The translations under genes and the position numbers were made by a program. From a virus: DNA of 64,000 nucleotides. Location of the stretch: positions 105,743 through 169,742 of the IMG/VR virus record IMGVR_UViG_3300020056_002227; one strand, 5' to 3'. A model generated the notes under the pieces. That model made no database searches, was not told where the DNA came from, and worked only from the letters and a program-made list of their open reading frames with translations. Below are positions 4,843 to 64,000 of this stretch, piece after piece (within the stretch, counting starts at the first letter, position 1; every line of letters starts with the position of its first letter).

Positions 4843-7800
4843 ATTTAGATCCATTGGCTCCAAGACCATTACTCTTGGGCAGGGAATACCACAACAGTTT
4901 CCCATTCAATTAGATCCAGCCCCATTTGAGGGTGCCATTGTTTATGCAGATAATGGTACAATTAAACTCTCGAATGGTACGGCGTGGGTTGATGTTGGAG
5001 CAGGGCCTCAAGGTGTCCAAGGTTTTACAGGTACCCAAGGTGTCCAAGGTATCCAAGGTGAGTATGGGCCAGGATTTACAATCATCGGTTCGGTACCAGA
5101 TGTAGACGCAGGTGGTGATCCACAAGCAACTTTAAATGCAGCATTCCCCAGTCCAAATATAGGTGAAGGTGTCATCGATGATACCGACGACGAGCTTTGG
5201 ATTTGGGATGGTACCAATTGGATTAATATCGGTTCATTCCGTGGTGTTCAAGGTCTTCAAGGCACTCAGGGTGTTCAAGGTCTTCAAGGCACACTCGGAG
5301 AAAAAGGTATTCAAGGTACCCGTGGTTATAGAGGACCACAGGGAACCCAAGGTACTCAAGGTTTCCAAGGTGTTCAAGGCTTCCAAGGCAATCAGGGCAT
5401 ACAAGGTGTCCAAGGGCCTCAGGCCTCACAGGGTACCCAAGGTATTCAAGGTAATCAAGGACTTCAGGGTCTTCAAGGTGTTCAAGGACCGCAAGCTTCA
5501 CAAGGAACTCAAGGCTTCCAAGGCAATCAAGGGATGCAGGGTTTCAACGGTGATGATGCTGGATCGGTATATGAATATCGACTACTAAATTCTAATATTG
5601 AGGCTGACCCAGGTAGTGGTCAGATGATTTGGAATTTACCTAGCAACCCAACCGATACTTTCTCCACAACTACAAGAATTTGGATTGACGATGAAGCCTT
5701 CTATGGCGTAAACATGGAAGGAATTTATTCGGCAATCGCAGCAGCAGACTCTGTTAATAAAGCCTACATGAAGGTAACAAAGCGTGGGCAACCAGATGAT
5801 TATGTTGTATTTACTATTCAGGCAATTTCTGATAGTACCGGTTACTGGCAATTAGATGTAACATTTATAGCCGGTAATGCAATCAGAGAGAATTTCGTTG
5901 AAGAAACATCACCTGGTGTTTTTACTTCTTATCCTCTACTCGTAGATTTTTCTATCAGTGGTGATAAGGGAATTCAAGGTGATCAAGGCACCCAAGGTTT
6001 CCAAGGACTACAAGGACCTCAAGGTCCACAAGGAATGCAGGGAACACAAGGTGTTCAAGGTGTCCAAGGCCCACAAGGGCTTACCGGTAATCAAGGTACC
6101 GTTGGTGCTTACGGCGGTGTAACATTTAGATACGAGTATAATGCTCTCGATGTAACTAATACAGACCCCACACCCGGATTCTTAAAGGGTGATAATGCAA
6201 TATTAGGTAATGCTACTGAATTATACATTGACGTCACTGATGCTGATGGTGTTACCATTAGTGCAATGCTTGCAGATTTCTATGCGTCTTCAAATCCAAA
6301 TAGTAAGGGCTATTTGAAACTGGCAGATGCATCCAACGTCTATAATTATGCTCTCTTTGAGGTGACAGGTGGTAACCTTGTAGGTACTGCTGGAACTGGA
6401 TATCACGCAGTAGCAGTAAATAGTCTTGTTACAGGTCAAACCTATTCTAACGGTACAGATTTCCGAATCTCATTTATAAGAACTGGTGATCAAGGCATAC
6501 AGGGCAATCAAGGTACTCAGGGTATTCAAGGTTTCCAAGGTTCACAGGGTACTCAAGGCTTCCAAGGATCTCAAGGGACTCAGGGTATCCAAGGTGTTCA
6601 AGGACCACAAGGTCTTCAAGGTACTCAAGGTTTCCAAGGAACACAAGGCACACAGGGCATTCAAGGATTACAGGGTGTACAAGGTTCCGTTGGTGATTTC
6701 GGTGGCCTTACATTTGATTATACATTCGATTCTGCGACCACTGATGCAGATCCTGGTCAAGGTAATTTAAGGTTTGATAATGCTGCATTTGATTCAGCAA
6801 CTAAAATGTATATCGATGACCTCGATGATGCAGCTAATGATCTTTCTCCACTCTTCACGGAACTTGACATTAATGCAAGTGGTGTAAAAGGCCTGTTTAG
6901 AATTATTAATGCAGCCGATGTTACCGAGTTTGCTACATTCAATTATACAGAAATCACAGATTCTACCGGTTATCATACCTTTGATGTAGCCCACATTGCT
7001 GGTGTAACCTCGTTCACAAATGGCGCAGATATTAGAATTACATTTGTTCGAACTGGAGACCCAGGCCCTCAGGGTGCTCAAGGTTCTCAAGGACCTCAGG
7101 GTACCCAAGGTTTCCAAGGTGTTCAAGGGCTACAAGGTATCCAAGGTACACAGGGCATCCAAGGCACACAGGGCATCCAAGGTATGCAAGGTACCGTAGG
7201 AGATCACGGTGGACTTTCTTGGAATTATCTCTTTGATTCAAATACAAGTTCTGGATCGGCCCCAGTTGCAAATAGCTGGAAGATTGATAACTCCAATATA
7301 ACGCTTGCAACGAAGCTTGTCATCGATGATATTCCAGATGATGCATACAGCAACGAATTAGATGACTTCTTTACCTATCTTGGTGCAATACCCGGTTCTC
7401 CAAAGGGTCATATTCTTATTGAGAGCACAGCGGATAACGATGGACCTGCAGGTCATCACTTTGTTGTCTACGAGTTTACTGCATTTAACTGGGATAGTGC
7501 ATCTGAATTATACGGTATCTTTGATGTAAACTACATTGCATCAGGAGCTGTAACAAGTAATAACTGGAATAACGTAGAGTCCGATCACGGCCCAGATACA
7601 CTGGTTCACTTTATTCCGGCTGGACCACAAGGTACTCAGGGACCACAAGGTACTCAAGGATTTACTGGTATTCAAGGTGGTGCAGGTGCCTCCGGTGGTG
7701 TAACATTCGAATATGAGTTCGATACAGATACTGGCACTTCTCTCTTAGGTGCACCTGGATTATTGAAGTTCAACAATGCTTCTCTATCTTCAGCCACTGA

Positions 7801-10285
7801 AATGAGAATCAGTGATACTACTCAGAATGGTGCAAACCTTGATACACTTCTGAATAATTATATTCTGAACAACCCAGGGCCCATCAAAGGCTTTTATAAG
7901 ATCATTTCAATTAATGATCCTACGAAATATGTTGTTTATTCTATTACTGGTGGATCAAGCACTCTCACACAATTTGTAATAAACAGTACATATGTTACAG
8001 CCTCTACCGGTGCTGATGCTACATATTTTGGAAACAACCCAGCGCTATTCATTACCTTCAGTAGAAATGGAGATGACGGGCCACAAGGTGTTCAAGGTTA
8101 TCAAGGTACTCAGGGCATTCAAGGTATTCAAGGTATTCCCGGCCAAGGCACACAAGGTTTCCAAGGTACTCAGGGTATTCAAGGTGGCCAAGGTGATCAG
8201 GGTGAAGCTGGTGCCTTCGGCGGTGTAACATTTGACTATACATTCAGAACTGATACGAATCTAACTTCGGTCGCCCCCGGCGAAATAGAGCTCAACAATG
8301 CAGCTGCAAATATTGCCACACAGATGGCAATTCACCACAGGGACGATAACTTTATTGATATCAGTCAATATTTAGCTACGATTGATGATTCTACAAGCCC
8401 CATTAAAGGACACTTTAGAATCTCAGAAGTAGGCACACCATCTAATTTCGTTCTCTTCACAATAAGTTCGATGACCGTTGGTGGTAGCTTCAATACCATA
8501 ACCTGTTCATATGTTGACGGGTCTCTTGGTTCCGGCACATTTACAGACCAGGCAGATGTTGTAATTACATTTGCTCGAACAGGTGATCAAGGGCCTCCTG
8601 GTGCTCAAGGAGCTCAAGGACCTCAGGGTACCCAAGGTTTCCAAGGTAACCAAGGTATTGCTGGAGACGGTAATCAAGGTACTCAGGGACCTCAAGGTTT
8701 CCAAGGTACCCAAGGCTTTACTGGTGGCCCAGGTGACGAAGGGCCACAAGGACCACAAGGCCCTCAAGGATTCCAAGGTATTCAAGGTTTTGAAGGTAGC
8801 CAAGGGCCTTCGGGTGCTGGTTCTCAAGGCCCACAGGGAATGCAAGGAATGCAGGGTGTTCAAGGCTTTGTAGGATCTGGTGGTGATGGTAACCAAGGAC
8901 CTCAAGGTTTCCAAGGAATGCAGGGAACACAAGGGGTTCAAGGTTTCCAAGGTATTTCTGGTGGTGATGGACAACCAGGTGGCCCAGGTTCTCAAGGGCC
9001 TCAGGGCACCCAAGGTATCCAAGGTACTCAAGGTATCAGTGGTGATGGAGGCGATGGATCACAGGGTGCTCAGGGACCACAAGGTTTCCAAGGTATTCAA
9101 GGTATTCAAGGTATTACTGCGTCAGGTGGTGTAGGGCCGCAGGGACCACAAGGTACTCAAGGTGTTCAAGGTATACAAGGATTTGGCCAAGAAGGTGGTC
9201 AGGGTACTCAGGGTTTACAAGGACTACAAGGTATACAGGGGCCCCTTGGTACTGCAAGTACCGGCGCACAAGGTATGCAGGGTACTCAGGGCTGGGAGGG
9301 CCCTCAGGGTTCTATAGGGATCGGTGATCCCGGTACACAAGGCCCTCAGGGTATTCAAGGTATCCAAGGTTCACAAGGTACTACAGGCTCCGGTGCAGAT
9401 GGTTCTCAAGGCTTCCAAGGGACACAAGGTACCCAAGGCTTTACGGGTGCTCAAGGTAATCAAGGTTTTACCGGAGCAGGAGATGTTGGAGCTCAAGGTG
9501 CTCAAGGCCCTCAAGGTACTATTGGTCTCACTGGCTCACAGGGTGCTCAAGGATTTGAAGGCGCAGGTGATGAAGGCGCTCAGGGACCACAAGGTACTCA
9601 GGGCATACAAGGTGACTTTGGACCACAAGGTACTACTGGTGCGGGTGCTCAGGGTGCTATTGGTTTCCAAGGATTCACTGGTTTCCAAGGTACTCAGGGC
9701 TTTACAGGTAGTGCAGGTGCTTCAACATCTATTGATGTACAAGATGTTCATACCTCTGGTCTTCAAAGTACCGACCTACTCGTAACCTTTGTTCAAGGCG
9801 GAACCGGTAATAGACCTTTGTATGCTACACTGACACCCAACCCAGCACCAAGTGCCGGTGCTCAGAATTTCCTATACAGAGCTGACCAAGATAAACTATC
9901 AGTAGAGAATATCTTTGTTGGAGGCACAATTACTCAAGATACTGGTGCTTCATGGACTGCTTCAGATGGTACTTTAAATATAACCGGAAGTCTTGAAGCT
10001 TCAAATGATTTGATTACAGCTTCTGATGCAAGATATAAAGAAAATGTTATTGATATCGAAAATGCCCTAAGCAAGGTCTTGGCAATGAGAGGTGTCAATT
10101 ATAACATGATAGGTGATGATACACAGAAAATTGGTTTGATCGCACAAGAAGTGCAAGAGGTCATACCAGAAGTTGTATCTAATAATAATGATAGACTTGG
10201 GGTTTCATACGGTAATATAGTCGCACTATTGATCGAAGCCATTAAGGAGCAACAGGCACAGCTTGACGATTTGAGAGGTAAGTAA
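4832..10285 (+). CDS. Collagen-like tail fibre with C-terminal S74 chaperone domain, 1817 aa
   Basis: This is a long fibre. Residues 1-60 form a short N-terminal head. Then long runs of Gly-X-Gln triplets (GTQGVQGIQG style), expected to form a collagen-like triple helix, alternate with six globular insertions of roughly 110-140 residues. Five of those begin with G-G-V/L-T/S-F/W. An almost uninterrupted collagen stretch of about 380 residues follows (bases 8580-9720), then a beta-rich region. From residue 1731 the protein ends in an intramolecular chaperone autoprotease domain (peptidase S74): SDARYKEN, then IGLIAQEVQEVIPEVV. In that family the domain trimerises the fibre and cuts itself off at the Ser-Asp. 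The start ATG has GGAAGAG upstream and lies inside the end of the previous gene. It is a likely receptor-binding or side fibre of the virion. Confidence 0.88.
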   Translation: MSTRFRSIGSKTITLGQGIPQQFPIQLDPAPFEGAIVYADNGTIKLSNGTAWVDVGAGPQGVQGFTGTQGVQGIQGEYGPGFTIIGSVPDVDAGGDPQATLNAAFPSPNIGEGVIDDTDDELWIWDGTNWINIGSFRGVQGLQGTQGVQGLQGTLGEKGIQGTRGYRGPQGTQGTQGFQGVQGFQGNQGIQGVQGPQASQGTQGIQGNQGLQGLQGVQGPQASQGTQGFQGNQGMQGFNGDDAGSVYEYRLLNSNIEADPGSGQMIWNLPSNPTDTFSTTTRIWIDDEAFYGVNMEGIYSAIAAADSVNKAYMKVTKRGQPDDYVVFTIQAISDSTGYWQLDVTFIAGNAIRENFVEETSPGVFTSYPLLVDFSISGDKGIQGDQGTQGFQGLQGPQGPQGMQGTQGVQGVQGPQGLTGNQGTVGAYGGVTFRYEYNALDVTNTDPTPGFLKGDNAILGNATELYIDVTDADGVTISAMLADFYASSNPNSKGYLKLADASNVYNYALFEVTGGNLVGTAGTGYHAVAVNSLVTGQTYSNGTDFRISFIRTGDQGIQGNQGTQGIQGFQGSQGTQGFQGSQGTQGIQGVQGPQGLQGTQGFQGTQGTQGIQGLQGVQGSVGDFGGLTFDYTFDSATTDADPGQGNLRFDNAAFDSATKMYIDDLDDAANDLSPLFTELDINASGVKGLFRIINAADVTEFATFNYTEITDSTGYHTFDVAHIAGVTSFTNGADIRITFVRTGDPGPQGAQGSQGPQGTQGFQGVQGLQGIQGTQGIQGTQGIQGMQGTVGDHGGLSWNYLFDSNTSSGSAPVANSWKIDNSNITLATKLVIDDIPDDAYSNELDDFFTYLGAIPGSPKGHILIESTADNDGPAGHHFVVYEFTAFNWDSASELYGIFDVNYIASGAVTSNNWNNVESDHGPDTLVHFIPAGPQGTQGPQGTQGFTGIQGGAGASGGVTFEYEFDTDTGTSLLGAPGLLKFNNASLSSATEMRISDTTQNGANLDTLLNNYILNNPGPIKGFYKIISINDPTKYVVYSITGGSSTLTQFVINSTYVTASTGADATYFGNNPALFITFSRNGDDGPQGVQGYQGTQGIQGIQGIPGQGTQGFQGTQGIQGGQGDQGEAGAFGGVTFDYTFRTDTNLTSVAPGEIELNNAAANIATQMAIHHRDDNFIDISQYLATIDDSTSPIKGHFRISEVGTPSNFVLFTISSMTVGGSFNTITCSYVDGSLGSGTFTDQADVVITFARTGDQGPPGAQGAQGPQGTQGFQGNQGIAGDGNQGTQGPQGFQGTQGFTGGPGDEGPQGPQGPQGFQGIQGFEGSQGPSGAGSQGPQGMQGMQGVQGFVGSGGDGNQGPQGFQGMQGTQGVQGFQGISGGDGQPGGPGSQGPQGTQGIQGTQGISGDGGDGSQGAQGPQGFQGIQGIQGITASGGVGPQGPQGTQGVQGIQGFGQEGGQGTQGLQGLQGIQGPLGTASTGAQGMQGTQGWEGPQGSIGIGDPGTQGPQGIQGIQGSQGTTGSGADGSQGFQGTQGTQGFTGAQGNQGFTGAGDVGAQGAQGPQGTIGLTGSQGAQGFEGAGDEGAQGPQGTQGIQGDFGPQGTTGAGAQGAIGFQGFTGFQGTQGFTGSAGASTSIDVQDVHTSGLQSTDLLVTFVQGGTGNRPLYATLTPNPAPSAGAQNFLYRADQDKLSVENIFVGGTITQDTGASWTASDGTLNITGSLEASNDLITASDARYKENVIDIENALSKVLAMRGVNYNMIGDDTQKIGLIAQEVQEVIPEVVSNNNDRLGVSYGNIVALLIEAIKEQQAQLDDLRGK
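8580..9720 (+). repeat. Long Gly-X-Gln collagen-like tract
   Basis: Triplets coding Gly-X-Gln, or variants such as Gly-X-Gly and Gly-X-Glu, run almost without interruption here. Shorter tracts of the same kind separate the globular domains further upstream in the gene. Glutamine is written by both CAA and CAG and glycine mainly by GGT and GGC, so the repeat is stronger at protein than at DNA level. Confidence 0.85.
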
Positions 10286-10288
10286 ATA

Positions 10289-10978
10289 ATGGCTCTACAG
10301 ACTAGTGGCGCGATTAGTATCAATGATTTAAGAAATGAATTTGGTCTCGGCGGAACTCGAGGCCTTAATTCATTTTATGCTGATTCTTCAGACCCTTGGA
10401 TCGGTACAATTCCCACCAGCGGCACCATTGCCATGAATGATTTCTATGGTTCTAGTGTTAGAACTGCACGGCTGGGAAGGCCGGGGTTTGGTGACGCAGC
10501 AACTTCTACTGGTTATCTTAATCGCAGAATAGGATGGTCGCGACAAGATGGAAGCCAATTCTATCTTTATGAATATGGTAGTACGAATGCAGCATTCGGT
10601 AGTATTACGAGATCCACAAGCTTATCTACTACTGCACAGCTTGGTGGTATTTGGATAACTCAATATTGGTACGGTTCCGGCCCGTCCCGGCCGATCTTTA
10701 GTATCTCCCATAGAAGTAGCTCGGACAGTGGATGGACTACCGTACGGTTAAAAGGACCTTCATTTCCTAGCGGTGGCCAGGTGCAATTCTCACTTAACAG
10801 AACATCGAGATATACTTTTGCCCGACACTCATACGGTACTACTGAACAAAGAAATTATTATGCTTGGCGATATGTTTGGTGGCAGAGTAGCGGCATGAGC
10901 TCTTTACTCACTTCTATTGCTAATTTGTTTGTATATTGCAGAATATATAATAGATCCCTTTATGTAAAATTTGAATGA
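10289..10978 (+). CDS. Small tail-fibre-type protein, 229 aa
   Basis: This follows the collagen-like fibre by 3 nt. The N-terminus reads ISINDLRNEFG and later GTIAMNDFYGSS. Short ISxNDxRxEFG / ISxNDFYG motifs like these are, from memory, common at the start of tail proteins in marine myoviruses. The remainder is rich in S, Y, R and W (for example YWYGSGPSRPIFSISHRSSS) and looks like a beta-rich ligand-binding domain. No signal peptide or catalytic motif is visible. It is probably a small adhesin or cap that works with the fibre upstream. The function is not established. Confidence 0.6.
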   Translation: MALQTSGAISINDLRNEFGLGGTRGLNSFYADSSDPWIGTIPTSGTIAMNDFYGSSVRTARLGRPGFGDAATSTGYLNRRIGWSRQDGSQFYLYEYGSTNAAFGSITRSTSLSTTAQLGGIWITQYWYGSGPSRPIFSISHRSSSDSGWTTVRLKGPSFPSGGQVQFSLNRTSRYTFARHSYGTTEQRNYYAWRYVWWQSSGMSSLLTSIANLFVYCRIYNRSLYVKFE

Positions 10979-10986
10979 GGCTATAG

Positions 10987-11517
10987 ATGATTACTTACAA
11001 AATATTAAGAGTGAATACCGCAACTCAAACTGTTCAGATTCGTTATTCGAAAGATAACTATGATGATTTCTATGCGCAATACACTTACGATATTCCTTTC
11101 ACCGAAGAAAAATTGCACCAATTGGCAAAAACTCAAATAGAGGAAGCAGCACATCATTGGCAATTGGCTGATGATGCACAAGATTTTCAAATAGAACAGG
11201 ATACAGGTGTAGTCAAGGATAGAATTTATGAAGCCACACCTGATTATGATCACCTAACACATACAATAGAACCTGTTATTACGGAAACGGAAACCACCGA
11301 AACATACGGCTACAGGGTAGTAGAGTTAAGCTCTGATCAAAAGGCATTTAATATTAGAAATCAGAGAGATGGTTTTCTTTTTGAAACTGATATCTATGCA
11401 CTTTCTGATAGAACAATGTCAGATGAGATGATTGCTTATCGACAAGGATTAAGAGATATGACAGATCAAGAAGGGTTTCCCGATAACGTTATTTGGCCGG
11501 TTCGTCCGATAGATTAA
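10987..11517 (+). CDS. Putative tail (fibre) assembly chaperone, 176 aa
   Basis: This acidic 176-residue protein starts 8 nt after the previous stop, behind GAGG. The C-terminus, AYRQGLRDMTDQEGFPDNVI followed by WPVRP, closely matches the signature of phage tail assembly chaperones (the Phage_tail_APC-type ending YRxALRDxxxxxGFPxxVxWPxxP). Such proteins usually sit directly downstream of fibre genes and help fold or trimerise the fibre tip without staying in the virion. The N-terminal 130 residues are helix-rich and not recognised. Its position after two fibre genes agrees with that role. Confidence 0.65.
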   Translation: MITYKILRVNTATQTVQIRYSKDNYDDFYAQYTYDIPFTEEKLHQLAKTQIEEAAHHWQLADDAQDFQIEQDTGVVKDRIYEATPDYDHLTHTIEPVITETETTETYGYRVVELSSDQKAFNIRNQRDGFLFETDIYALSDRTMSDEMIAYRQGLRDMTDQEGFPDNVIWPVRPID

Positions 11518-37856: not shown

Positions 37857-38763
37857 TATCGAAATCGGTGAAATAGAAGTAATCAGTAACGGTCGTGCCC
37901 TTGTAGATATTCAAGGCGCTAATGGAAAGTACGATAATTTTCAGCCTAATGTAACTGATCTGACCGGTACTCAAATCAACTTCAATAATCCATTCAATAA
38001 TGTTACCCTCTCAGCAAACAGAACTTTTACTTTCTTTGCACTTGGGGCTGGGAAAACAACAATCGTAAATATAGACACTAGTGCTGATTTATACACGCCG
38101 ATATTTAATTTTGAATCTACTACCTTTCAGTGGCAATCTGATGCTGAACCAGATTGGGCTACTCGTAGATATTGGACTGTTGCACTAGTATGCTGGAGTG
38201 GAACAGTTGTTCGAGCCTCGGCAACCGGTTATGACGTCCAAGAAGGTGGTTCTACTAGTCCTGGTGCTCCAGAAATAATTGATCTTGGCAACGGGCTGCG
38301 AACGGCACCAACTGGTATTAATCCAGAATCCGCGGGTTTAGCCAGAGCAGGATTTTCATTCCTATCTAACGGCGAACTTAAGATGAATAATGTAGAAGGA
38401 GAATTGTCTTCTGGTAATATATTTACTCAAACAGCAGGAGCTCCAAGCCGTTGGTGTAGTGTAACTCCCACACAAACTTATTATATCAGAGCAACAATCC
38501 TTCAAAATTCCACTCATCCCGATGGCACTCTTGGTTTTGCCCAGGGCACTAGCTTAGATAATACATCTACCCTAGGCCAACTTGGCCCATGGTATTCATT
38601 AGCCGAAAATCGCACCTGGTGTATCGAAGAGACTGATGCTGGATCCCTTCTGGAGGACACTGAGCTTCGAATGAGAATAGAGATAGCATCGGATGACAAT
38701 GAAGATAGTATTCTTGCATCTAATGAATTTTTAATGATATGTAATTTGCAGGCGAATGATTAA
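37852..38763 (+). CDS. Adhesin-array protein A, 303 aa
   Basis: Residues 1-130 are the array's shared N-terminal module: VISNGRALVDIQGANGKYDN, an NVTLSANRTFTF strand, and PDWATRRYWTVALVCWSG followed by VVRASATGYD. The same order appears in the genes at 38778, 40503 and 40892. Residues 140-303 are a distinct beta-rich module beginning EIIDLGNGLRTAPTGINPES and ending LASNEFLMICNLQAND, not seen in the other copies. No signal or enzyme motif is visible. The leader repeat and late promoter lie directly upstream. It is probably a virion surface or fibre-tip protein, a possible receptor-binding variant. Function is inferred only from context. Confidence 0.6.
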   Translation: MAIEIGEIEVISNGRALVDIQGANGKYDNFQPNVTDLTGTQINFNNPFNNVTLSANRTFTFFALGAGKTTIVNIDTSADLYTPIFNFESTTFQWQSDAEPDWATRRYWTVALVCWSGTVVRASATGYDVQEGGSTSPGAPEIIDLGNGLRTAPTGINPESAGLARAGFSFLSNGELKMNNVEGELSSGNIFTQTAGAPSRWCSVTPTQTYYIRATILQNSTHPDGTLGFAQGTSLDNTSTLGQLGPWYSLAENRTWCIEETDAGSLLEDTELRMRIEIASDDNEDSILASNEFLMICNLQAND

Positions 38764-38777
38764 AAGGTTTAGTATCT

Positions 38778-39863
38778 ATGGCACATGAAATAGGAACAGA
38801 TGTTGTAATAGATAATAATCGTCGGCTGCAAAATATCACTGGAGCTGATGGGGTTTATTCTGATCTTTCGCCTACTGTAACCCAAATTACAAATACAATC
38901 AATTTTGATTTTCCGGTAATGTCTTGTGACATGACAGAAAATCTTACCTTCACCGCTACAAATATACCAACATCAGCAGACGATACCAGAATTTCGATGT
39001 TATTATTGAATAGGTCGGCTGATCTTCACACATTAAGTTTTGCAAACGTTAGTGGTGGAATTATTTGGACTACTGATAATGGACAAGAACCAACTTGGAG
39101 TGATTACCAATATTGGCAAGTGGTATTTACTGCATCTTCCGATAGAATTACTGCGGCCGCAGGAGGTTTCGGTGATGTGAGTGGTGGTGGTGGCGGTACG
39201 GCAGAAATGTCTACCAATATTAGTGTACCGAATGAATGGCTTAATAGATTAACACAAATCGAAGATACTGGATTTGGAACCACCCCCACAGCTTTCGTTG
39301 CAATTAGGTTTTTGCACGAACCGAATGATAATCGAATTGCAATTAGATGGACAGGGGGCCGAAGTACCGACACCATCCCCCAAAGTACGAATATAACAAC
39401 ATATGTAAATTATTCTGGTATCACTAACATTACAGCTCTTGATATTCAATATAATGTAGAAATTCAGGGCATTACCACCGGTGACAGCCTAACATTTAAC
39501 TGCACCCCAGCAGACCCATCTACTTTACAAACGGGTGACTTGCGAACGACTGGAATTCACGATTCTGGTGTAGATTATAATCTACTTGGTAGCACCGCGG
39601 GGGTTTATCTCTTGTGGCAAGGACAAGGTAGATCGCGCGATATCAATAACAATATACCAGGTACTCTGGGTTATTCTTACGCGGGTTTTCCGAGCCCACT
39701 TGATCCAAATTTCGCACCACATTTAAAAATTACTATGGTATGTGATCAGGGGACTTTTGTTGCAACTGGTTCAATGCCTATTACCGGCTCAGGTGTTAGC
39801 ATACCTGACGCTTTAAGTATATACCAGGCTGGAGATGGTACGGGCACGGGGGGATTTAATTAA
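38778..39863 (+). CDS. Adhesin-array protein B, 361 aa
   Basis: This starts 14 nt after protein A, behind AAAAGG. The shared N-terminal module covers residues 1-135 (VVIDNNRRLQNITGADGVYS, MTENLTFTATN, PTWSDYQYWQVVFTASSDRI). A Gly-rich linker follows, then a C-terminal module with FVAIRFLHEPNDNRIAIRW and YVNYSGITNITALDIQYNVE. That second module recurs at the end of the Calx-beta-like protein at 42428 (ITFQIDHEPSNNRIKIE, YVDYTGLSNITSLDVKYNVS), showing domain exchange across the array. There is no enzyme motif. The stop overlaps the next ATG by one base. Likely a structural or adhesive protein. Confidence 0.6.
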   Translation: MAHEIGTDVVIDNNRRLQNITGADGVYSDLSPTVTQITNTINFDFPVMSCDMTENLTFTATNIPTSADDTRISMLLLNRSADLHTLSFANVSGGIIWTTDNGQEPTWSDYQYWQVVFTASSDRITAAAGGFGDVSGGGGGTAEMSTNISVPNEWLNRLTQIEDTGFGTTPTAFVAIRFLHEPNDNRIAIRWTGGRSTDTIPQSTNITTYVNYSGITNITALDIQYNVEIQGITTGDSLTFNCTPADPSTLQTGDLRTTGIHDSGVDYNLLGSTAGVYLLWQGQGRSRDINNNIPGTLGYSYAGFPSPLDPNFAPHLKITMVCDQGTFVATGSMPITGSGVSIPDALSIYQAGDGTGTGGFN

Positions 39864-56838: not shown

Positions 56839-57744
56839 ATGGCAGATGATCAAAGCAAGGTTGTTGCTGAAGAGGAAACTCTATCAGCCGCACCAGAAAC
56901 TGTTGAAGAGCAGGTTGAGTCTGTTGAGGAAGTCGCACAGGAAGAGGAAGTAACTACGGAAGTAGTTGAAGAGGTTGTGGAAGAGACAGAGGTTGTTACC
57001 GAAGTCGATCCTACAATTGCTTCTATCTTTGAAGGCGTCGACCTTTCAGATGAATTCAAAAACAAGGTATCAGTTGTTTTTGACGCCGCAGTCAATGAGC
57101 AGGTTACAGAGAAAGTTAAGGCAATCGAAACTGATCTGAACGAGAAACTCGAAGCAGAGCTTCAAGAATCTCTGACAGCAAAAGTAGACGAGATTGTTGA
57201 AAATCTTGACAAGTATCTTGACTATGTTGTTGAAGAGTGGATGTCGGAAAACGAAATTGCTATCGAGGCCGGTATTAAGGTTGAAATGGCAGAATCTCTA
57301 ATGACTGGTCTTAAGGATCTATTCGAAGAGCACAACATCGATGTAAATGATGAGACTGTTGATGTGGTAACAGGCTTGGAAGAGCAGGTTGCAGAAGCAG
57401 AAGCTAAGAGAAATGAACTCGTGAATGAGAACATTGCTTTGGCACAAGAAATTACCAATATGAAGGCTGAAAGAGTCTTTGAGGAAATTACTGAAGGTCT
57501 GACTGCTACTCAACGCGAAAGACTAGTTGTTCTTTCTGAGAAACTAGATCGAAGTGATCTGGAAGATTACTCTGCTAATCTCCAGACCATTAAAGAATCT
57601 TTCTTTACAGAAACAGCTGTGAAAAAGGATGAGGTGATTGAGGAAGAAATCATTACGGAAGAGGAAGTAATTAAGCGTCCTGTTTCTGATTATTCTTCGG
57701 TCAATGCTCTTGTAGAGGCACTCAACGCAAGAAAAAGCAACTAA
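56839..57744 (+). CDS. 22: Prohead core scaffold protein gp22, 301 aa
   Basis: I use ATG 56839 with AAAAGGAGA upstream; the frame is open back to 56800 without a better site. The first 60 residues are strongly acidic (VEEVAQEEEVTTEVVEEVVE). The rest is coiled-coil-like and rich in Glu, Lys and Val. T4 gp22 (269 aa) is the major scaffold around which the capsid assembles, later digested by gp21. Composition, size and order between 21 and 23 identify it. Confidence 0.88.
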   Translation: MADDQSKVVAEEETLSAAPETVEEQVESVEEVAQEEEVTTEVVEEVVEETEVVTEVDPTIASIFEGVDLSDEFKNKVSVVFDAAVNEQVTEKVKAIETDLNEKLEAELQESLTAKVDEIVENLDKYLDYVVEEWMSENEIAIEAGIKVEMAESLMTGLKDLFEEHNIDVNDETVDVVTGLEEQVAEAEAKRNELVNENIALAQEITNMKAERVFEEITEGLTATQRERLVVLSEKLDRSDLEDYSANLQTIKESFFTETAVKKDEVIEEEIITEEEVIKRPVSDYSSVNALVEALNARKSN

Positions 57745-57756
57745 GAAATTAGTTTT

Positions 57757-57764
57757 TATAAATA
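57757..57764 (+). promoter_or_regulatory. T4-type late promoter TATAAATA
   Basis: A perfect late box, 42 nt before the major capsid ATG, matching the need for very high gp23 output. Confidence 0.75.
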
Positions 57765-57806
57765 AACAGTAACACACTAATTTAAGTAACAAGGAGATAG
57801 AATAAT

Positions 57807-59141
57807 ATGTCACAGACAAACTATCAGAAGCTTGTGGAAAAGTGGGGGCCAATCCTAGAGCACGAATCTTTTTCACCTATTGCTGATCAACACAGAAAGT
57901 CGGTAACCGCGACTATCTTGGAGAACACAGAACGTGCGCTGCAAGAATCCGGTGATCTTTCTGCAAACATGAGCTCTCTTCTTTCTGAAGCAGCTCCTGT
58001 CAACGCTGCTGGCGCTGACGGTTTCACATCTGGTGCGACTGACGCTGGTCCGGTTGCTGGATACGATCCAGTCCTGATCTCTCTCGTGCGTCGTGCGATG
58101 CCCAACCTGATTGCATATGATATTTGTGGTGTCCAGCCTATGACTGGTCCTACAGGTCTCATCTTCGCAATGCGGTCTCGTAAGGGTACTCAATCTGGTG
58201 CAGAAACTGGTTACGGTGAAGCAGATACCACTCATTCTGGTGTAGGCACTCAAACTGGCACGATCCCTGTAGCAGATGCTGCTAATACTACTCTCTTTGA
58301 GACTGGTACTGGTATGGCAACAAACGTTGCTGAAGCTCTCGGTGATGGTGTTGGTGCAGACTTCGCAGAAATGGCCTTCTCTATTGAGAAAGTAACTGTT
58401 GCTGCTAAGACACGTGCACTGAAGGCTGAGTACACCACTGAACTGGCTCAAGACCTGAAAGCTGTTCACGGTCTGGATGCTGAAACAGAACTGGCTAACA
58501 TTCTCCAGTCTGAGATCTTGACTGAAATCAACCGTGAAGTTGTACGTACTATCTACACCACTGCTGAAGTTGGTGCTGGAAATACTGCTGCCTCTGGTGT
58601 TTTCGATCTCGACGTTGATGCTAACGGCCGTTGGTCTGTTGAGAAGTTCAAGGGTCTGATGTTCCAGGTTGAGCAAGAAGCTAACGCTATTGCTAAGGGA
58701 ACTCGTCGCGGTAAGGGTAACATTGTTATCTGTTCTTCTGATGTGGCTTCTGCTCTTCAGATGGCCGGTGTACTTGATCACACTCCTGCACTCAATGCCA
58801 ATGCTTTGGATGTTGATGATACTGGTAACACCTTCGCTGGTGTTCTGAACGGTCGCTTCCGTGTATACATCGATCCATATGCTGGTGGTAACTACATGGT
58901 TGTTGGTTACAAAGGTTCTTCTGCCTTTGATGCTGGTCTCTTCTACTGCCCATACGTACCTCTTCAGATGGTTCGTGCAGTTGGCGAGAACACTTTCCAG
59001 CCCAAGATCGGATTCAAGACTCGCTACGGCATGGTTGCAAACCCATTTGCTCAAGGCGATGCCTCTTCTCAAGGTCTTGGTGCTCTTACAGCCAACGTCA
59101 ACAAGTACTACAGAAAAGTACGAGTTACAAACTTGTTCTAA
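57807..59141 (+). CDS. 23: Major capsid protein gp23, 444 aa
   Basis: A short gp23 (T4 521), as in marine relatives. The sequence YDPVLISLVRRAMPNLIAYD, then CGVQPMTGPTGLIFAMRSRK and a C-terminal FKTRYGMVANPFAQG are the diagnostic gp23 blocks. The precursor segment ends at MSSLLSE (E61), a likely gp21 cleavage site, so the mature shell protein would start AAPVNAAG. It forms the capsid hexamers. AAGGAGAT lies upstream, with a strong late promoter before it and a terminator pair behind it. Confidence 0.97.
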   Translation: MSQTNYQKLVEKWGPILEHESFSPIADQHRKSVTATILENTERALQESGDLSANMSSLLSEAAPVNAAGADGFTSGATDAGPVAGYDPVLISLVRRAMPNLIAYDICGVQPMTGPTGLIFAMRSRKGTQSGAETGYGEADTTHSGVGTQTGTIPVADAANTTLFETGTGMATNVAEALGDGVGADFAEMAFSIEKVTVAAKTRALKAEYTTELAQDLKAVHGLDAETELANILQSEILTEINREVVRTIYTTAEVGAGNTAASGVFDLDVDANGRWSVEKFKGLMFQVEQEANAIAKGTRRGKGNIVICSSDVASALQMAGVLDHTPALNANALDVDDTGNTFAGVLNGRFRVYIDPYAGGNYMVVGYKGSSAFDAGLFYCPYVPLQMVRAVGENTFQPKIGFKTRYGMVANPFAQGDASSQGLGALTANVNKYYRKVRVTNLF

Positions 59142-59151
59142 TAACAAGAAG

Positions 59152-59163
59152 CCCTTTAAAGGG
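59152..59163. repeat. 12-bp palindrome CCCTTTAAAGGG
   Basis: A perfect self-complementary sequence starting 11 nt after the gp23 stop, upstream of the strong terminator. Probably part of the 3' end structure of the capsid mRNA. Confidence 0.5.
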
Positions 59164-59173
59164 ACTACTTCAA

Positions 59174-59200
59174 GGGAGATCTTCGGATCTCCCTTTTTTT
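59174..59200 (+). terminator. Rho-independent terminator after gp23
   Basis: An 8-bp perfect stem (GGGAGATC/GATCTCCC) closed by the very stable TTCG tetraloop and followed by seven T. This is a textbook intrinsic terminator, 33 nt after the gp23 stop, ending the head/tail transcript. Confidence 0.92.
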
Positions 59201-59280
59201 ATGAGCTGTATTTGAGTAAAGTGTCATATCATTGAAACTCAATCTTAACACAAACTTCATAAAACTTTTGTTCCTCAATG

Positions 59281-59288
59281 ATTAAATA
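59281..59288 (+). promoter_or_regulatory. Possible late-promoter variant ATTAAATA
   Basis: Six of eight matches to the late box with the TAAATA core intact, in the gap between the gp23 terminator and the TonB receptor gene (ATG 59363). If used, RNA would begin just before the terminator-like hairpin at 59309. Confidence 0.3.
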
Positions 59289-59308
59289 AAGATATGAAAA
59301 CAAAGAAC

Positions 59309-59340
59309 CCCCGGCCGCTAACGCGACGGGGATTTTTTTT
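59309..59340 (+). terminator. Terminator-like hairpin in the TonB-receptor leader
   Basis: CCCCG (59309-59313) pairs with CGGGG (59327-59331), with a further inner CGC/GCG pairing (59316-59318 with 59323-59325), and is followed by A and eight T. It ends 22 nt before the ATG at 59363. It is either a second terminator for readthrough from gp23 or an attenuator/5' structure in the receptor mRNA. Confidence 0.65.
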
Positions 59341-59362
59341 GGACAAAAAGAGGAAACAAAGT

Positions 59363-62152
59363 ATGAAATTGAAACAACTTTTTGCAATGACCTTGGTACT
59401 AATACCATTACTAGGTCTAGCAGAAGAAATCCACTATGATAGAAATCAACTCCCACAGCTAAACATTGCCATACTAGAACAAAGTGAATTTGCAGATCGT
59501 ATTGAGGTTACAACTGTACCTGTTGCAGAATTGAAGCCAGTACAGACTCAACGTGTAAAGGATCTGGTAAAACACGAAAAAAGATTAATCAAGGTTCAAC
59601 AAGATACCTATAGACCGCTAGTAATCGATCATGATTACTACATTATTGATGGCCACCATCGGTATGATGCACTTACCGAGATGGGTGTAGAAAAGGCCAG
59701 AGTTGTTATAGTACACGCAAATATTGCTGATGTGGTAGAAGCGTTTCCTCAATACCGAGATGATACACCTACATACGAACCCATGGAAGAAGTTCGAGTA
59801 GTAGGCTCTCGAGCAAATCTAATCAATGCCGTCGATAAGCAAATGATGGCAGATAACATTATCTCAGTTGTCGATTCAGATGCACTAGGTAATTTCCCCG
59901 ATGCAACTGCAGCAGATGCTGTTCGGCGACTCTCTGGTATCAATGTAGAGAATGATCAAGGTGAAGGTCGGTATATTACCATTCGTGGTTTATCCTCTGA
60001 CCTGAATGCAGTTTCTGTAAATGGTGCTTCTATGGTTGCACCAGAGAATGGCCGATCTGTTATCATGGATGGAATTCCAACTGAATTGCTTGACAGCATC
60101 ACAGTGGCAAAATCTTTGGTACCCGAAATGGATTCTGATAGTATTGGTGGCCGTGTAGAATTCAATACAAAGAGAGCAACCGAACTTGAAGATCGTTTAT
60201 TCAATGTAAAGCTTGCTACCAAATGGAGCGAGAAGGATGATAAGAAGATGCCTAATGCATCTGTCATCTATGGTGATTATATTACCGATAATCTTGCACA
60301 CATTGTAGGTCTCACTTATTCTTCTCGCAGAATCATCTCGCATAATAATGAGACTGGTTTTGGTTGGGAAGATGGTTTAATGAATGACGATTATGAAATG
60401 CGTTGGTATGATGTTGAGCGCGAGCGATATGGATTTAGTTATGATATTGCTTACGATGCAGGAACAACTTTATACTATGCAAACATTCTTCATAACCAAT
60501 ACGATGAGACAGAAACACGTTTTAAAAATGAATATGGTAAGATTAAGAACACCGGAGTAGTCTTTGATAATGCTGTAGAATCTTCTCGTGTTCGGCATGA
60601 CGTGGAGACAAAACAACGGTATGAAACTAGAACAATCAGTGCAGCCTCTCTTGGATTCGAGCATTTGGGTGCCGTTACGATTGATGGTCAACTGTCTTTC
60701 TCCAGAGCAGAAGAGGATGATTCTGATAACGCCGATGTTACCTTCCGTAATTACGACAAAGATTTCGGTGCTCTTTTCGATTGGAGCAATCCACGACTCC
60801 CCACAGTCACTCCATATGATCTCACTCTAAGAGATCCAGCTAATCTTGAATTTGATGCGTTCGAAACATGGTCGAATGTGAGTCAAGATGAAGAGGTTGC
60901 CGCACAGTTGAATTTCGAATTCGATACAGGCATTGGCATGATCAAGACTGGTGTGAAATATCGAGGTCGAGAAAAGGTCGTCGATGACTACATCATCGGC
61001 TACACTTGGGATCGTACCCTTGCAGATTTCGAATCAGAATCCCCTGATTGGATTTGGGATCAAACATTTGGTTCTCACCTTTCTGGATCTGATACATATG
61101 CACTACTTGATTCCGTCGGGCAAATGGAAGTCGATTTTGAAGATGATTTGAGCAGAGATTTTTCTACCAAAGAAAATATCATGGCTGCATATATTCAAGA
61201 CACGATTGACTTAGAAAATGCTGTTATCATTTTCGGTGTTCGGTACGAAGCCACTGATTTCAAATCTATTGCATATGATCAGAATGGTGATCTCGTATAT
61301 GCAGAAAATGATTACGATTTTGTTGCTCCAAACCTGACGGTTAAGTATTTTTTAAATGATAATATTCAGGTTCGTGGCGCATTGTGGCGTGGACTCTCTA
61401 GACCTGGTTTCAAAGAGACTGCTCCAAAAACATCTGTTGATGTAGACACCTCTGGTGATACTACTGGATCAGTTGGTAACCCAGATCTCTTACCATATGA
61501 AGCAGATAACTTTGATCTGTCTATCGAATATTATGGTGAAGGGATGACCTTTGCATCGATTGGTTTCTTCTATAAGAATATTGCTAATGCCATCTACCCA
61601 ACATATCAACTGAATGGTACATTTAATGGCATTATATTCAACGATGGAGTAGAGACATGGATTAATGCTGATGATTCTACTGTAAGAGGTCTCGAGGTCA
61701 ACCTACAGTACGGCTGGGAGAATGGACTCTACGTTGCTCTAAATGGTACGCTCACTGACAGTGAATCCGTGTTCTCGTTCGATAATGATCAGACATTCTC
61801 TACCCCTTTCCGTAAATTAGCTGACAAGGCTGCAAACTTGAGTTTGGGCTATGAGACAGATAAGATCGATATTCGACTTGCTGGGACATATAGAGATGAA
61901 TATCTTGATTGGCTTGCAGATGAAGATGGAGATATCACGAGTGTGAGTGATAATAACTCCAGATTTGTTGCACCTCATATGCAGATCGACTTGACTGCAA
62001 AATATATCGTGAATGAATCAATGACGCTTCGATTTGAAGCAATTAACATCAATGATCGCGATGAGTATTACTACTGGGGTAATGAGAATCAACTCTCTCA
62101 GTTCGATAACTACGGTGTATCATATGTCGTGGGGATTGACTTCAGACTCTAA
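59363..62152 (+). CDS. TonB-dependent outer-membrane receptor with ParB-like N-terminal domain, 929 aa
   Basis: ATG 59363 is chosen over 59294 because AAGAGGAA lies 8 nt upstream and it begins a clean signal peptide (MKLKQLFAMTLVLIPLLGLA, cut after A20). Residues about 47-117 resemble a ParB/sulfiredoxin-like domain: PLVIDHDYYIIDGHHRYDAL with the G-H-H-R turn at 97-100. A TonB-box-like EEVRVVGSR (142-150) and the plug domain follow, with FPDATAADAVRRLSGINVEN, YITIRGLSSDLNAVSVNG and IGGRVEFNTK (to about 272). This matches the large TonB receptor family typified by TIGR01782. Residues 275-929 alternate beta-strands as a 22-stranded barrel and end VVGIDFRL, so the usual final Phe is replaced by Leu. 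These receptors import iron chelates or oligosaccharides using TonB energy. The length is complete, without stops or frameshifts. It is highly unexpected after gp23 in a phage. Confidence 0.88.
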   Translation: MKLKQLFAMTLVLIPLLGLAEEIHYDRNQLPQLNIAILEQSEFADRIEVTTVPVAELKPVQTQRVKDLVKHEKRLIKVQQDTYRPLVIDHDYYIIDGHHRYDALTEMGVEKARVVIVHANIADVVEAFPQYRDDTPTYEPMEEVRVVGSRANLINAVDKQMMADNIISVVDSDALGNFPDATAADAVRRLSGINVENDQGEGRYITIRGLSSDLNAVSVNGASMVAPENGRSVIMDGIPTELLDSITVAKSLVPEMDSDSIGGRVEFNTKRATELEDRLFNVKLATKWSEKDDKKMPNASVIYGDYITDNLAHIVGLTYSSRRIISHNNETGFGWEDGLMNDDYEMRWYDVERERYGFSYDIAYDAGTTLYYANILHNQYDETETRFKNEYGKIKNTGVVFDNAVESSRVRHDVETKQRYETRTISAASLGFEHLGAVTIDGQLSFSRAEEDDSDNADVTFRNYDKDFGALFDWSNPRLPTVTPYDLTLRDPANLEFDAFETWSNVSQDEEVAAQLNFEFDTGIGMIKTGVKYRGREKVVDDYIIGYTWDRTLADFESESPDWIWDQTFGSHLSGSDTYALLDSVGQMEVDFEDDLSRDFSTKENIMAAYIQDTIDLENAVIIFGVRYEATDFKSIAYDQNGDLVYAENDYDFVAPNLTVKYFLNDNIQVRGALWRGLSRPGFKETAPKTSVDVDTSGDTTGSVGNPDLLPYEADNFDLSIEYYGEGMTFASIGFFYKNIANAIYPTYQLNGTFNGIIFNDGVETWINADDSTVRGLEVNLQYGWENGLYVALNGTLTDSESVFSFDNDQTFSTPFRKLADKAANLSLGYETDKIDIRLAGTYRDEYLDWLADEDGDITSVSDNNSRFVAPHMQIDLTAKYIVNESMTLRFEAININDRDEYYYWGNENQLSQFDNYGVSYVVGIDFRL

Positions 62153-63798
62153 AAAAGACAAATGTCGGCTGGGGCATTTGTCCAGATGCTCCAGACCGGC
62201 TCATCTTCCACATCAATATTACGAGAGAATTGAATTTGATGTTCTTTCTCACTTAATTGACTCATCAGCCATCTTGCTCTTAGGAGAGAATCTACTGAAT
62301 CCGTGGGTGGTGGCTGATTTTCTATTTCGTCTAAGCAGAAGCAACCACCATTAGTTCCAATGGAAACACTCTGTCCTGTTTCTGGTATTTCACAGGTAAC
62401 ACTTCTATCTGAAAATCTGCCTGTTGCTAAGTCAGCATATGACATAATCGTACCGTAACCACCGTATATACCTTCATATTCTGGATTATCGGCCTGAGCA
62501 TTATAACCTGGTATATTGTATCCATAAGAATATTCAAACAAGCCTGGTTCATTTGCATCTTCCCATTCGTGCTGTAAGCCTAATAAATGACCCGCCTCAT
62601 GTATGAATGTCTCATGAGCCCTTTCATAATATCTAGTATTTGCTGCCTCTTGAAACGTGCTATTGTGGAAGCATTGAGTGATACCTCTACTCTTATCTAT
62701 CCCTCTCGTAGCGTCCAAGTGAGCGACCCCACAAGCGACAGGGTCATTGTGTTTCTTCTTGAATAAAAACGCTAGGTCAGCATTAGCTTCACGTTGCCAT
62801 CTATCAATGTTCTGAAATTCATATTTACCATTGAAAAATGCCCGATATTGCCTATACAGGTCACCTTCAGCAACATCAACCATTACTATATCTGCTACTC
62901 GTAAAAGAACATATGTACCGCTTACCATAAACATATGATTTGCCTCGTAGAATTGCTTATCTACAAATTCTTCTACAGTCATACCATCACGTTCTTCTTC
63001 AGTCATATTCGTATCAAACACTACCAACATATCAATAATCGCGCGACCCGCGTGCTCTTCTACTGGCTGATATGGATACGATACATCGGTTTTTTGTTTA
63101 ATACCATCACAGGTCATATAATCATAGCGACCGTCACCAGTATCAGTTCGAACTGTCGGGCAGTCTGTTGGTTTTTCCATTTGAACAAAACAAGATGGAT
63201 CGAGGTGTACAGTACGTTCTGTATATGTGCCACCTTCTCCGTCTGCATAGTCTTGCAGTCTATCTTCTGGTAATAGATGATTGATGTTTTGCCAGTGGGG
63301 ATCGTATTCTTCTGGTGTCAATGATCCAGCACAATATGAGTCACCTAGTAGTGTACCTTCTTCGGGCGGTGGTTCCCAGCCACAATCTGCTGAATCAGTC
63401 TCTACCACCTCTGTATAAGAACCACCTTCGCCGTCAGCAAAATCCTGTACCTTATCAAAATCACCAAGATTTTGTATCGTATTGAGTAGGTCTAAAAATT
63501 GTTGTTCTGTACTGTTTGCACAGTAGGGATCGGAGAGGGGTGTACCAAACAGTGGTGGTTTTTCATACCCACAAGCTTCAGAATTTGGAGTTTCTTCAGT
63601 TGTTGATCCACCATTACCATCAGCAATGACTTGAATAAGAGTAGTACCGTCACACGATTCTTCTAAAACGGTTCCAGCATCGGGGTATGAGGGCGCGGGT
63701 GTTACAACAATTGGTTCGGTGGGTTCAGGTTCATTTGTACTGCCTCCACCACAAGCAGTAAGAAGGAAAATCAGTAGACTCAGGGTAATTTGTTTCAT
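62149..63798 (-). CDS. Lipoprotein zinc metalloprotease (metzincin), 549 aa
   Basis: Start at 63798 on the minus strand: GAGGT lies 5 nt upstream and the product begins MKQITLSLLIFLLTACGGGS, a lipoprotein signal with lipobox LTAC (C16). Residues about 42-204 hold three Cys-containing repeats around ADGxGGxxTE. From about 250 comes a protease domain (GRAIIDMLVVFDTNMTEEER) with the zinc site HEAGHLLGLQH at 400-410 (H400, H404, H410, catalytic E401) and Met-turn IMSYADL (M452). All metzincin residues are present. It should be exported and anchored by lipid, probably in the outer membrane. The substrate is unknown. It is convergent with the TonB receptor gene; the two 3' ends overlap by 4 nt. In-frame upstream ATGs at 63819 and 63840 are less well placed. 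Confidence 0.85.
   Translation of the reverse strand: MKQITLSLLIFLLTACGGGSTNEPEPTEPIVVTPAPSYPDAGTVLEESCDGTTLIQVIADGNGGSTTEETPNSEACGYEKPPLFGTPLSDPYCANSTEQQFLDLLNTIQNLGDFDKVQDFADGEGGSYTEVVETDSADCGWEPPPEEGTLLGDSYCAGSLTPEEYDPHWQNINHLLPEDRLQDYADGEGGTYTERTVHLDPSCFVQMEKPTDCPTVRTDTGDGRYDYMTCDGIKQKTDVSYPYQPVEEHAGRAIIDMLVVFDTNMTEEERDGMTVEEFVDKQFYEANHMFMVSGTYVLLRVADIVMVDVAEGDLYRQYRAFFNGKYEFQNIDRWQREANADLAFLFKKKHNDPVACGVAHLDATRGIDKSRGITQCFHNSTFQEAANTRYYERAHETFIHEAGHLLGLQHEWEDANEPGLFEYSYGYNIPGYNAQADNPEYEGIYGGYGTIMSYADLATGRFSDRSVTCEIPETGQSVSIGTNGGCFCLDEIENQPPPTDSVDSLLRARWLMSQLSEKEHQIQFSRNIDVEDEPVWSIWTNAPADICLF
62151..62182 (-). terminator. Rho-independent terminator for the metalloprotease gene, inside its 3' end
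   Basis: On the minus strand an 8-bp stem (GACAAATG/CATTTGTC, 62157-62164 with 62175-62182, 10-nt loop) is followed by six T (62151-62156). It lies within the last codons of the protease and just beyond the receptor stop. On the plus strand no T-run follows, so it serves mainly the minus-strand gene. Confidence 0.75.
63187..63675 (-). repeat. Three Cys-containing ADGxGGxxTE repeats in the metalloprotease
   Basis: Residues about 42-82, 85-146 and 148-204 each run GT-x-L, a Cys, then ADGxGGxxTE and a second Cys. I recall similar GTLL...C...YADGxGGxY(T) repeats in phage tail proteins, which would make this a phage-style surface module fused to a protease. Confidence 0.7.
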
Positions 63799-63858
63799 AT
63801 GTACCTCATGTTTAAACATATCAGTACATGATACCACCATGAATCTACTGAATTTCTT

Positions 63859-64000
63859 TTATTTATTCTTACCCTGCCAAGGTTGTGTGCAATCCATTTT
63901 ATGGTTTCCTTTCATGCCACACTGAGGACAAGGCTTTGCAAAAATACGATCCCAATTACTCTCGTATACTTTACGATCTACCTTTATTGGTCTAGGTTTA
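63859..64000 (-). CDS. C-terminal end of a small zinc-knuckle-like protein (partial)
   Basis: The minus-strand frame is open from the window edge to a TAA at 63859-63861, giving the last 46 residues. It contains CPQCGMKGNHKMDC, a Cys-x2-Cys-x5-His-x3-Cys pattern like a zinc knuckle or short zinc ribbon, and a basic end WQGKNK. This suggests a nucleic-acid-binding or structural zinc site. The start lies outside the window, so length and family are unknown. Confidence 0.6.
   Translation of the reverse strand, partial: KPRPIKVDRKVYESNWDRIFAKPCPQCGMKGNHKMDCTQPWQGKNK
63860..63867 (-). promoter_or_regulatory. Late-promoter-like box AATAAATA on the minus strand
   Basis: Reads AATAAATA on the minus strand, overlapping the stop of the upstream minus-strand gene, about 61 nt before the protease ATG at 63798. 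Seven of eight matches. Confidence 0.4.

Follow-up and report, generated by a model that had tools for sequence, protein, structure and literature searches.

A phage-encoded TonB-dependent receptor with a ParB-like N-terminal domain, a probable phosphorus-acquisition gene of marine T4-like phages

TonB-dependent receptors (TBDTs) such as FhuA serve as entry receptors for phages. Among bacteria, a TBDT encoded next to a phytase has been predicted to take up phytic acid (PMC3400609). Among phages, the marine megaphage Mar_Mega_1 carries a putative SusC TBDT, proposed to be an auxiliary gene with a carbohydrate role (PMC9723777); this corrects an earlier note on the DNA described here, which knew of no phage with a complete TBDT. 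Control of a phage phosphorus gene by the host has been described for cyanophage pstS, which is controlled by the host PhoBR system (PMC10976474). Neither a fusion of a ParB-like domain with a TBDT nor a phage TBDT for phosphorus was reported in the open papers searched, and the fusion described below appears to be new.

The window analyzed here is a stretch of 64,000 nucleotides, positions 105743-169742, that forms the 3' end (the last 64 kb) of a linear virus record of 169,742 b. It contains a receptor gene with the following parts, in positions of the window:

59363..62152, + strand: TBDT with an N-terminal ParB-like domain, intact ORF of 929 aa (PF00593, PF07715, TIGR01782)
59363..59422, + strand: signal peptide, residues 1-20 (MKLKQLFAMTLVLIPLLGLA), ending before 59423, read by eye from the sequence
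59423..59776, + strand: ParB/sulfiredoxin-like domain with a DGHHR loop, residues 21-138 (about 115 aa; Pfam, AlphaFold, Foldseek)
59786..59806, + strand: TonB box EEVRVVG, residues 142-148, aligned in phage and cellular homologues
59846..60151, + strand: plug domain, residues 162-263 (PF07715)
60170..62149, + strand: beta-barrel, approximately residues 270-929 (PF00593; strands in the AlphaFold model)

Pfam matched both the barrel (TonB_dep_Rec_b-barrel PF00593, E-value 1.2e-33, residues 453-896) and the plug (Plug PF07715, E-value 1.4e-13) above the cut-offs, and the NCBIfam model TIGR01782 (TonB-Xanth-Caul), whose cut-off is 310, scored 443 bits over residues 141-928. The full-length AlphaFold model was built from 9 alignment rows and reached a pLDDT of only 57, and the barrel model was therefore left out of residue-level claims; the best 50 Foldseek matches of this low-confidence model were all TBDTs. 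A PDB sequence search with the full receptor found no relative at E≤0.001. An alternative in-frame ATG at 59294 would give a protein of 952 aa, but the start at 59363 is favored because it is accompanied by the RBS-like GAGGAAAC and by the signal peptide. The latter has a basic start, a hydrophobic core and an A-x-A-like end, and all complete phage versions start in a similar way. In the TonB box, E142, V146 and G148 are invariant in the 9-row alignment. The claim of the earlier note that the phage encodes an intact, complete TBDT of 929 residues was thus borne out by the open frame and the Pfam and TIGR01782 matches. The signal peptide, TonB box, plug and barrel that it listed are likewise present, except that the TonB box follows the ParB-like domain and does not lie near the mature N-terminus. 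The protein is predicted from its sequence to function, probably, in TonB-dependent ligand uptake.

The domain between the signal peptide and the TonB box matched Pfam ParBc_2 (PF08857) over residues 71-121 with 21.7 bits, below the cut-off of 23.6, and its counterpart in the related contig L005 scored 23.6, equal to the cut-off. Modeled in isolation, it reached a pLDDT of 87.6, and Foldseek matched it to ParB, Noc, sulfiredoxin and free serine kinase with E-values from 1.8e-5 and TM-scores of only 0.4-0.6. IDGHH is invariant among 33 aligned phage domains and the next R is nearly so. By fold and DGHHR-type loop the domain thus belongs to the ParB/sulfiredoxin superfamily, with a Pfam score just under or at the cut-off. 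The order signal peptide, ParB/sulfiredoxin-like domain, TonB box, plug and barrel was found in the gp23-linked phage lineages described below and in the contigs L056, L057 and L131. Neither L132 and L133 nor any of the cellular homologues inspected has the domain, and every receptor version that bears it is viral. Its nearest stand-alone relatives are phage ParB-like proteins of 107 aa (L060-L064; 37-38%), which have no signal peptide and whose surroundings resemble phage DNA-replication neighborhoods; on the sequence comparison, the fused domain could plausibly derive from proteins of this type.

The receptor gene starts 221 b after the end of gp23. The elements found upstream of it are:

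57807..59141, + strand: gp23 major capsid protein (PF07068, E-value 9e-145)
59171..59200, + strand: intrinsic-terminator-like hairpin after gp23 (−16.4 kcal/mol, z −3.64), followed by T7
59221..59260, + strand: Pho-box-like array of four 7-mers (GTGTCAT, TTGAAAC, TCTTAAC and ACTTCAT, separated by atca, tcaa and acaa) with an 11-bp period
59301..59341, + strand: second terminator-like hairpin with a U-run, in the receptor leader (−18.1 kcal/mol, z −3.63)

Among the viral contigs scanned, nine others from four phage lineages carry the receptor directly 3' of gp23, with gp20-gp21-gp22 upstream where covered; identities in these contigs are 67-100% for the receptor and 79-100% for gp23. A wider profile scan gave 14 viral contigs with the receptor, five of which place it elsewhere: beside gp4/gp19-like genes in L056, near gp43 in L131 and beside gp46/47-like genes in L132 (translations read by eye), beside curli genes in L133, and in another region in L057. 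Among known isolate phages, only four unannotated human-fecal fragments were matched, at 22-28% identity. When the window is compared with L004, synonymous changes approach saturation, and dN is 0.027 for the plug and 0.091 for the barrel. In comparisons that were neither saturated nor near-identical, dN/dS was 0.02-0.10 for the plug (0.020 between the window and L005) and 0.03-0.06 for the barrel (0.032 between L004 and L005). The receptor is therefore selectively maintained under purifying selection, and the TonB box and plug are its most strongly conserved parts. L004 and L005 are 97% identical over plug and barrel, as against 78% in gp23 and 64% in the ParB-like domain, indicating that the transporter part moves among phages independently of its neighbors. 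The same contrast places recombination near the border of the ParB-like domain.

Searches for cellular homologues spanned family, order and class, and the closest ones were 33-64% identical over plug and barrel. In two SAR92 genomes (L011 and L012), homologues of 55-57% identity are directly followed by a beta-propeller phytase (PF02333, E-value 1e-47). A phytase (31-100% by tblastn) adjoins every homologue with enough flanking sequence except that of L043, and in nine of the ten genomes scanned it is the sole phytase of the genome. In L043, which carries the closest cellular homologue (64%), no phytase was found in the genome, and an alkaline phosphatase gene (PF00245, E-value 2e-129) lies nearby. 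PiT, PPK2 and Ppx were additionally found in L050, as was PPK2 in L011. In the tree, the phage receptors and L043 form one clade (100/99) that is sister to the phytase-linked SAR92 receptors. The phage receptor is thus homologous to phytase- and phosphatase-linked receptors, while PF02333 is absent from the phage record itself, so the phage must rely on a phytase of its host. Given the receptor's relatives, we infer that this host would be a gammaproteobacterium.

The array between gp23 and the receptor is the best intergenic Pho-box-like site in the record. Scored with textbook Pho half-site weights, it exceeded all 172 other upstream regions of the phage, and none of 300 shuffles reached its score; its held-out K=3 score was also above all 172. 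When a leave-one-out position weight matrix (PWM) with period 11 was applied, all nine phage receptor upstream regions fell within the top 3% of the 172 background regions. The combined Fisher chi2 was 82-86 (df 18) at period 11 and 20-39 at periods 8-10 and 12-14, the nine tests being not fully independent as the regions are partly related. With a refined cellular half-site PWM alone, L005 and L132 did not pass, nor, weakly, did L008 and L131; these four pass only when the sites of other phages contribute to the matrix, as they do in the leave-one-out PWM. A TATAAT lies exactly 10 bp 3' of the box in L057 and L133, and a TAAAAT (5/6 match) in L132. The array of the window is less canonical than that of L133, and no good −10 follows it at the distance expected. 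It is likely a phosphate-starvation switch and a predicted PhoB target, a Pho box being present at the level of sequence only; Pho boxes predicted in phages are unreliable without binding assays (PMC10976474).

The position directly downstream of gp23, in a late region, is as first described, but the strong hairpin and U-run between the two genes suggest that the receptor is probably outside the gp23 transcription unit. The window contains nine copies of TATAAATA, each of them on the + strand and several just 5' of late genes. A late promoter for the receptor was considered and rejected, as no TATAAATA and only the imperfect TTAAATAA lies upstream of it. A late-promoter-like TAAATA and the second hairpin sit between the array and the receptor start. 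This hairpin with its U-run makes attenuation possible, and similar hairpins are visible upstream of the receptor in L004 and L005. Rfam gave no match across 57000-64000.

Downstream, the receptor converges with one gene:

62149..63840, − strand: M12B/reprolysin-like metalloprotease, secreted, probable lipoprotein (PF13582, E-value 5e-9)

An HExxHxxGxxH motif and a lipoprotein-like start (LLTAC) were read in its sequence, and a metalloprotease also adjoins the receptor in L002, L003 and L004. A search of 295 genomes from the order found no homologue at E≤1e-20, and the gene is therefore uninformative about the host. Elsewhere, the record encodes 5-aminolevulinate synthase (record 8086-9357, − strand; L135:8086-9306; TIGR01821, 566 bits), alternative oxidase (record 10842-11423, − strand; L135; PF01786, E-value 2e-63) and heme oxygenase (record 38601-39209, − strand; L136:18601-19161; PF01126, E-value 3e-19), which by their sequence matches are assigned as auxiliary genes of respiration and heme metabolism. 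Phage AlaS with HemO has been described (PMC11480375). Of the related contigs, L133, viral according to IMG/VR, encodes a TBDT followed by CsgF (PF10614), CsgG (PF03783, E-value 1e-52) and a FecR-domain protein (5769-7078 and 7759-8880), apparently curli export genes on a phage. L131, a 160-kb T4-like contig that also bears the receptor, encodes isocitrate lyase (348-1589; NF011645, 611 bits, above cut-off). The Fe-S scaffold IscU is encoded by L002 (14164-14547, − strand; TIGR01999 above cut-off) and L131 (14305-14694), with 79% identity between the two phages.

We consider it probable that the receptor is a phosphorus-acquisition auxiliary gene, controlled by the PhoB of the host and serving the TonB-driven import of phytate or phosphate esters. 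Under phosphate limitation, PhoB of the infected gammaproteobacterium would activate the phage gene via the Pho-box-like array. The receptor would then be exported to the outer membrane and inserted there; energized by the host TonB-ExbBD, it could import inositol hexakisphosphate (phytate) or a related phosphate ester. A periplasmic phytase or phosphatase of the host would free the phosphate, which the host Pst or PiT would take in for phage DNA synthesis. The ParB/sulfiredoxin-like domain would lie on the periplasmic side, where its role may be to bind the imported ligand through its phosphoryl groups or to make contact with a host partner. A more specific proposal, which we regard as speculative and rather doubtful, is that a cytoplasmic phage protein of the ParB/sulfiredoxin fold became exported and joined to a phytate receptor that the phages had captured, ahead of its TonB box, with the DGHHR loop binding or processing the phosphorylated ligand in the periplasm and so partly replacing the phytase left behind. 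Weighing against the phosphorus reading are the phytase-less phage record, the non-canonical array without a good −10, and the TAAATA and hairpin in the leader.

Several other roles were weighed. The heme genes of the same phage leave room for a receptor that raises the supply of iron or heme, with the phytate link reflecting ferric-phytate use or ancestral context only. The record encodes 5-aminolevulinate synthase and heme oxygenase, the related contig L002 encodes IscU, phytic acid chelates iron (PMC3400609), and the top PDB matches of Foldseek are siderophore receptors, though these dominate solved TBDTs. However, the homologues accompany phytase, alkaline phosphatase, PiT, PPK2 and Ppx, no iron gene was recognized in the homologue flanks read, and the upstream arrays resemble Pho boxes, which makes an iron or heme role unlikely. 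A supply of carbon through a glycan transporter of the SusC/TonB-Xanth-Caul type could be argued from the TIGR01782 match and from the interpretation of the Mar_Mega_1 SusC (PMC9723777), but it is highly improbable, as the phytase-linked receptors align across the same region as that match and no glycoside hydrolase was recognized beside the homologues whose neighbors were read. The earlier suggestion that the receptor feeds the infected cell was therefore of the right class, with phosphorus as the most likely nutrient and not iron or glycans. That note missed the ParB-like domain, the phytase- and phosphatase-linked relatives and the upstream array.

Its other suggestion, a decoy or a block to superinfection, would have the phage TBDT mask, replace or titrate a host receptor used by competing phages. 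The location after late genes is consistent with this, and FhuA is the target of Llp, a lipoprotein of superinfection exclusion (the solved complex, 8a60, is among the Foldseek matches). Yet neither function requires a TonB box or a plug, and it is these parts of the receptor that are best conserved; the Pho-box-like arrays and the hairpin separation from the gp23 unit misfit a simple late structural role, and the receptor occupies several other genome places. We thus regard exclusion as quite improbable. A chimeric assembly joining phage with bacterial DNA, or a lack of related phages, had been named as grounds for dismissing the finding. Although the window reaches the end of its linear record, the 14 viral contigs carrying the receptor rule out a chimera for practical purposes: nine have the same junction with gp23, their capsid genes have co-diverged, and the phage clade, with its exclusively viral ParB-like versions, is distinct from the SAR92 receptors.

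If phosphorus acquisition is indeed the role of the receptor, phages would, in hosts other than cyanobacteria, remodel what can be imported from dissolved organic matter, and would do so under the host's own starvation switch. To our knowledge, the phage phosphorus genes described to date have periplasmic or cytoplasmic sites of action, and most of them concern inorganic phosphate or nucleotides. The fusion adds a domain without counterpart in the cellular homologues examined, and concrete tests are now enabled, namely PhoB binding and phytate uptake.

The closest known systems are the phytase-linked TBDTs of marine proteobacteria (Citromicrobium, PMC3400609; SAR92 L011 and L012), which are of the same family over plug and barrel and have a TonB box. 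Many of the phytase-linked cellular TBDTs found here also have a Pho-box-like sequence upstream, as in the phage; unlike them, the phage receptor has no phytase in its record and carries the ParB/sulfiredoxin-like domain before the TonB box. Mar_Mega_1, likened here by description only, shares a phage-borne TBDT but differs in its SusC type, megaphage genome and proposed carbohydrate role. Cyanophage pstS would be a functional analogue, as phosphorus acquisition by a T4-like phage under host Pho control; PstS, however, is a soluble periplasmic binder of inorganic phosphate, whereas the receptor belongs to the outer membrane and probably takes organic phosphate. ParBc_2 (PF08857), SerK, sulfiredoxin and L060-L064 share the fold and the DGHHR-type loop with the extra domain, which, unlike them, is exported as part of a TBDT fusion. 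The signaling TBDTs FecA and FpvA likewise place an extra folded domain before the TonB box, but theirs has the STN fold and that of the phage receptor is ParB/sulfiredoxin-like.
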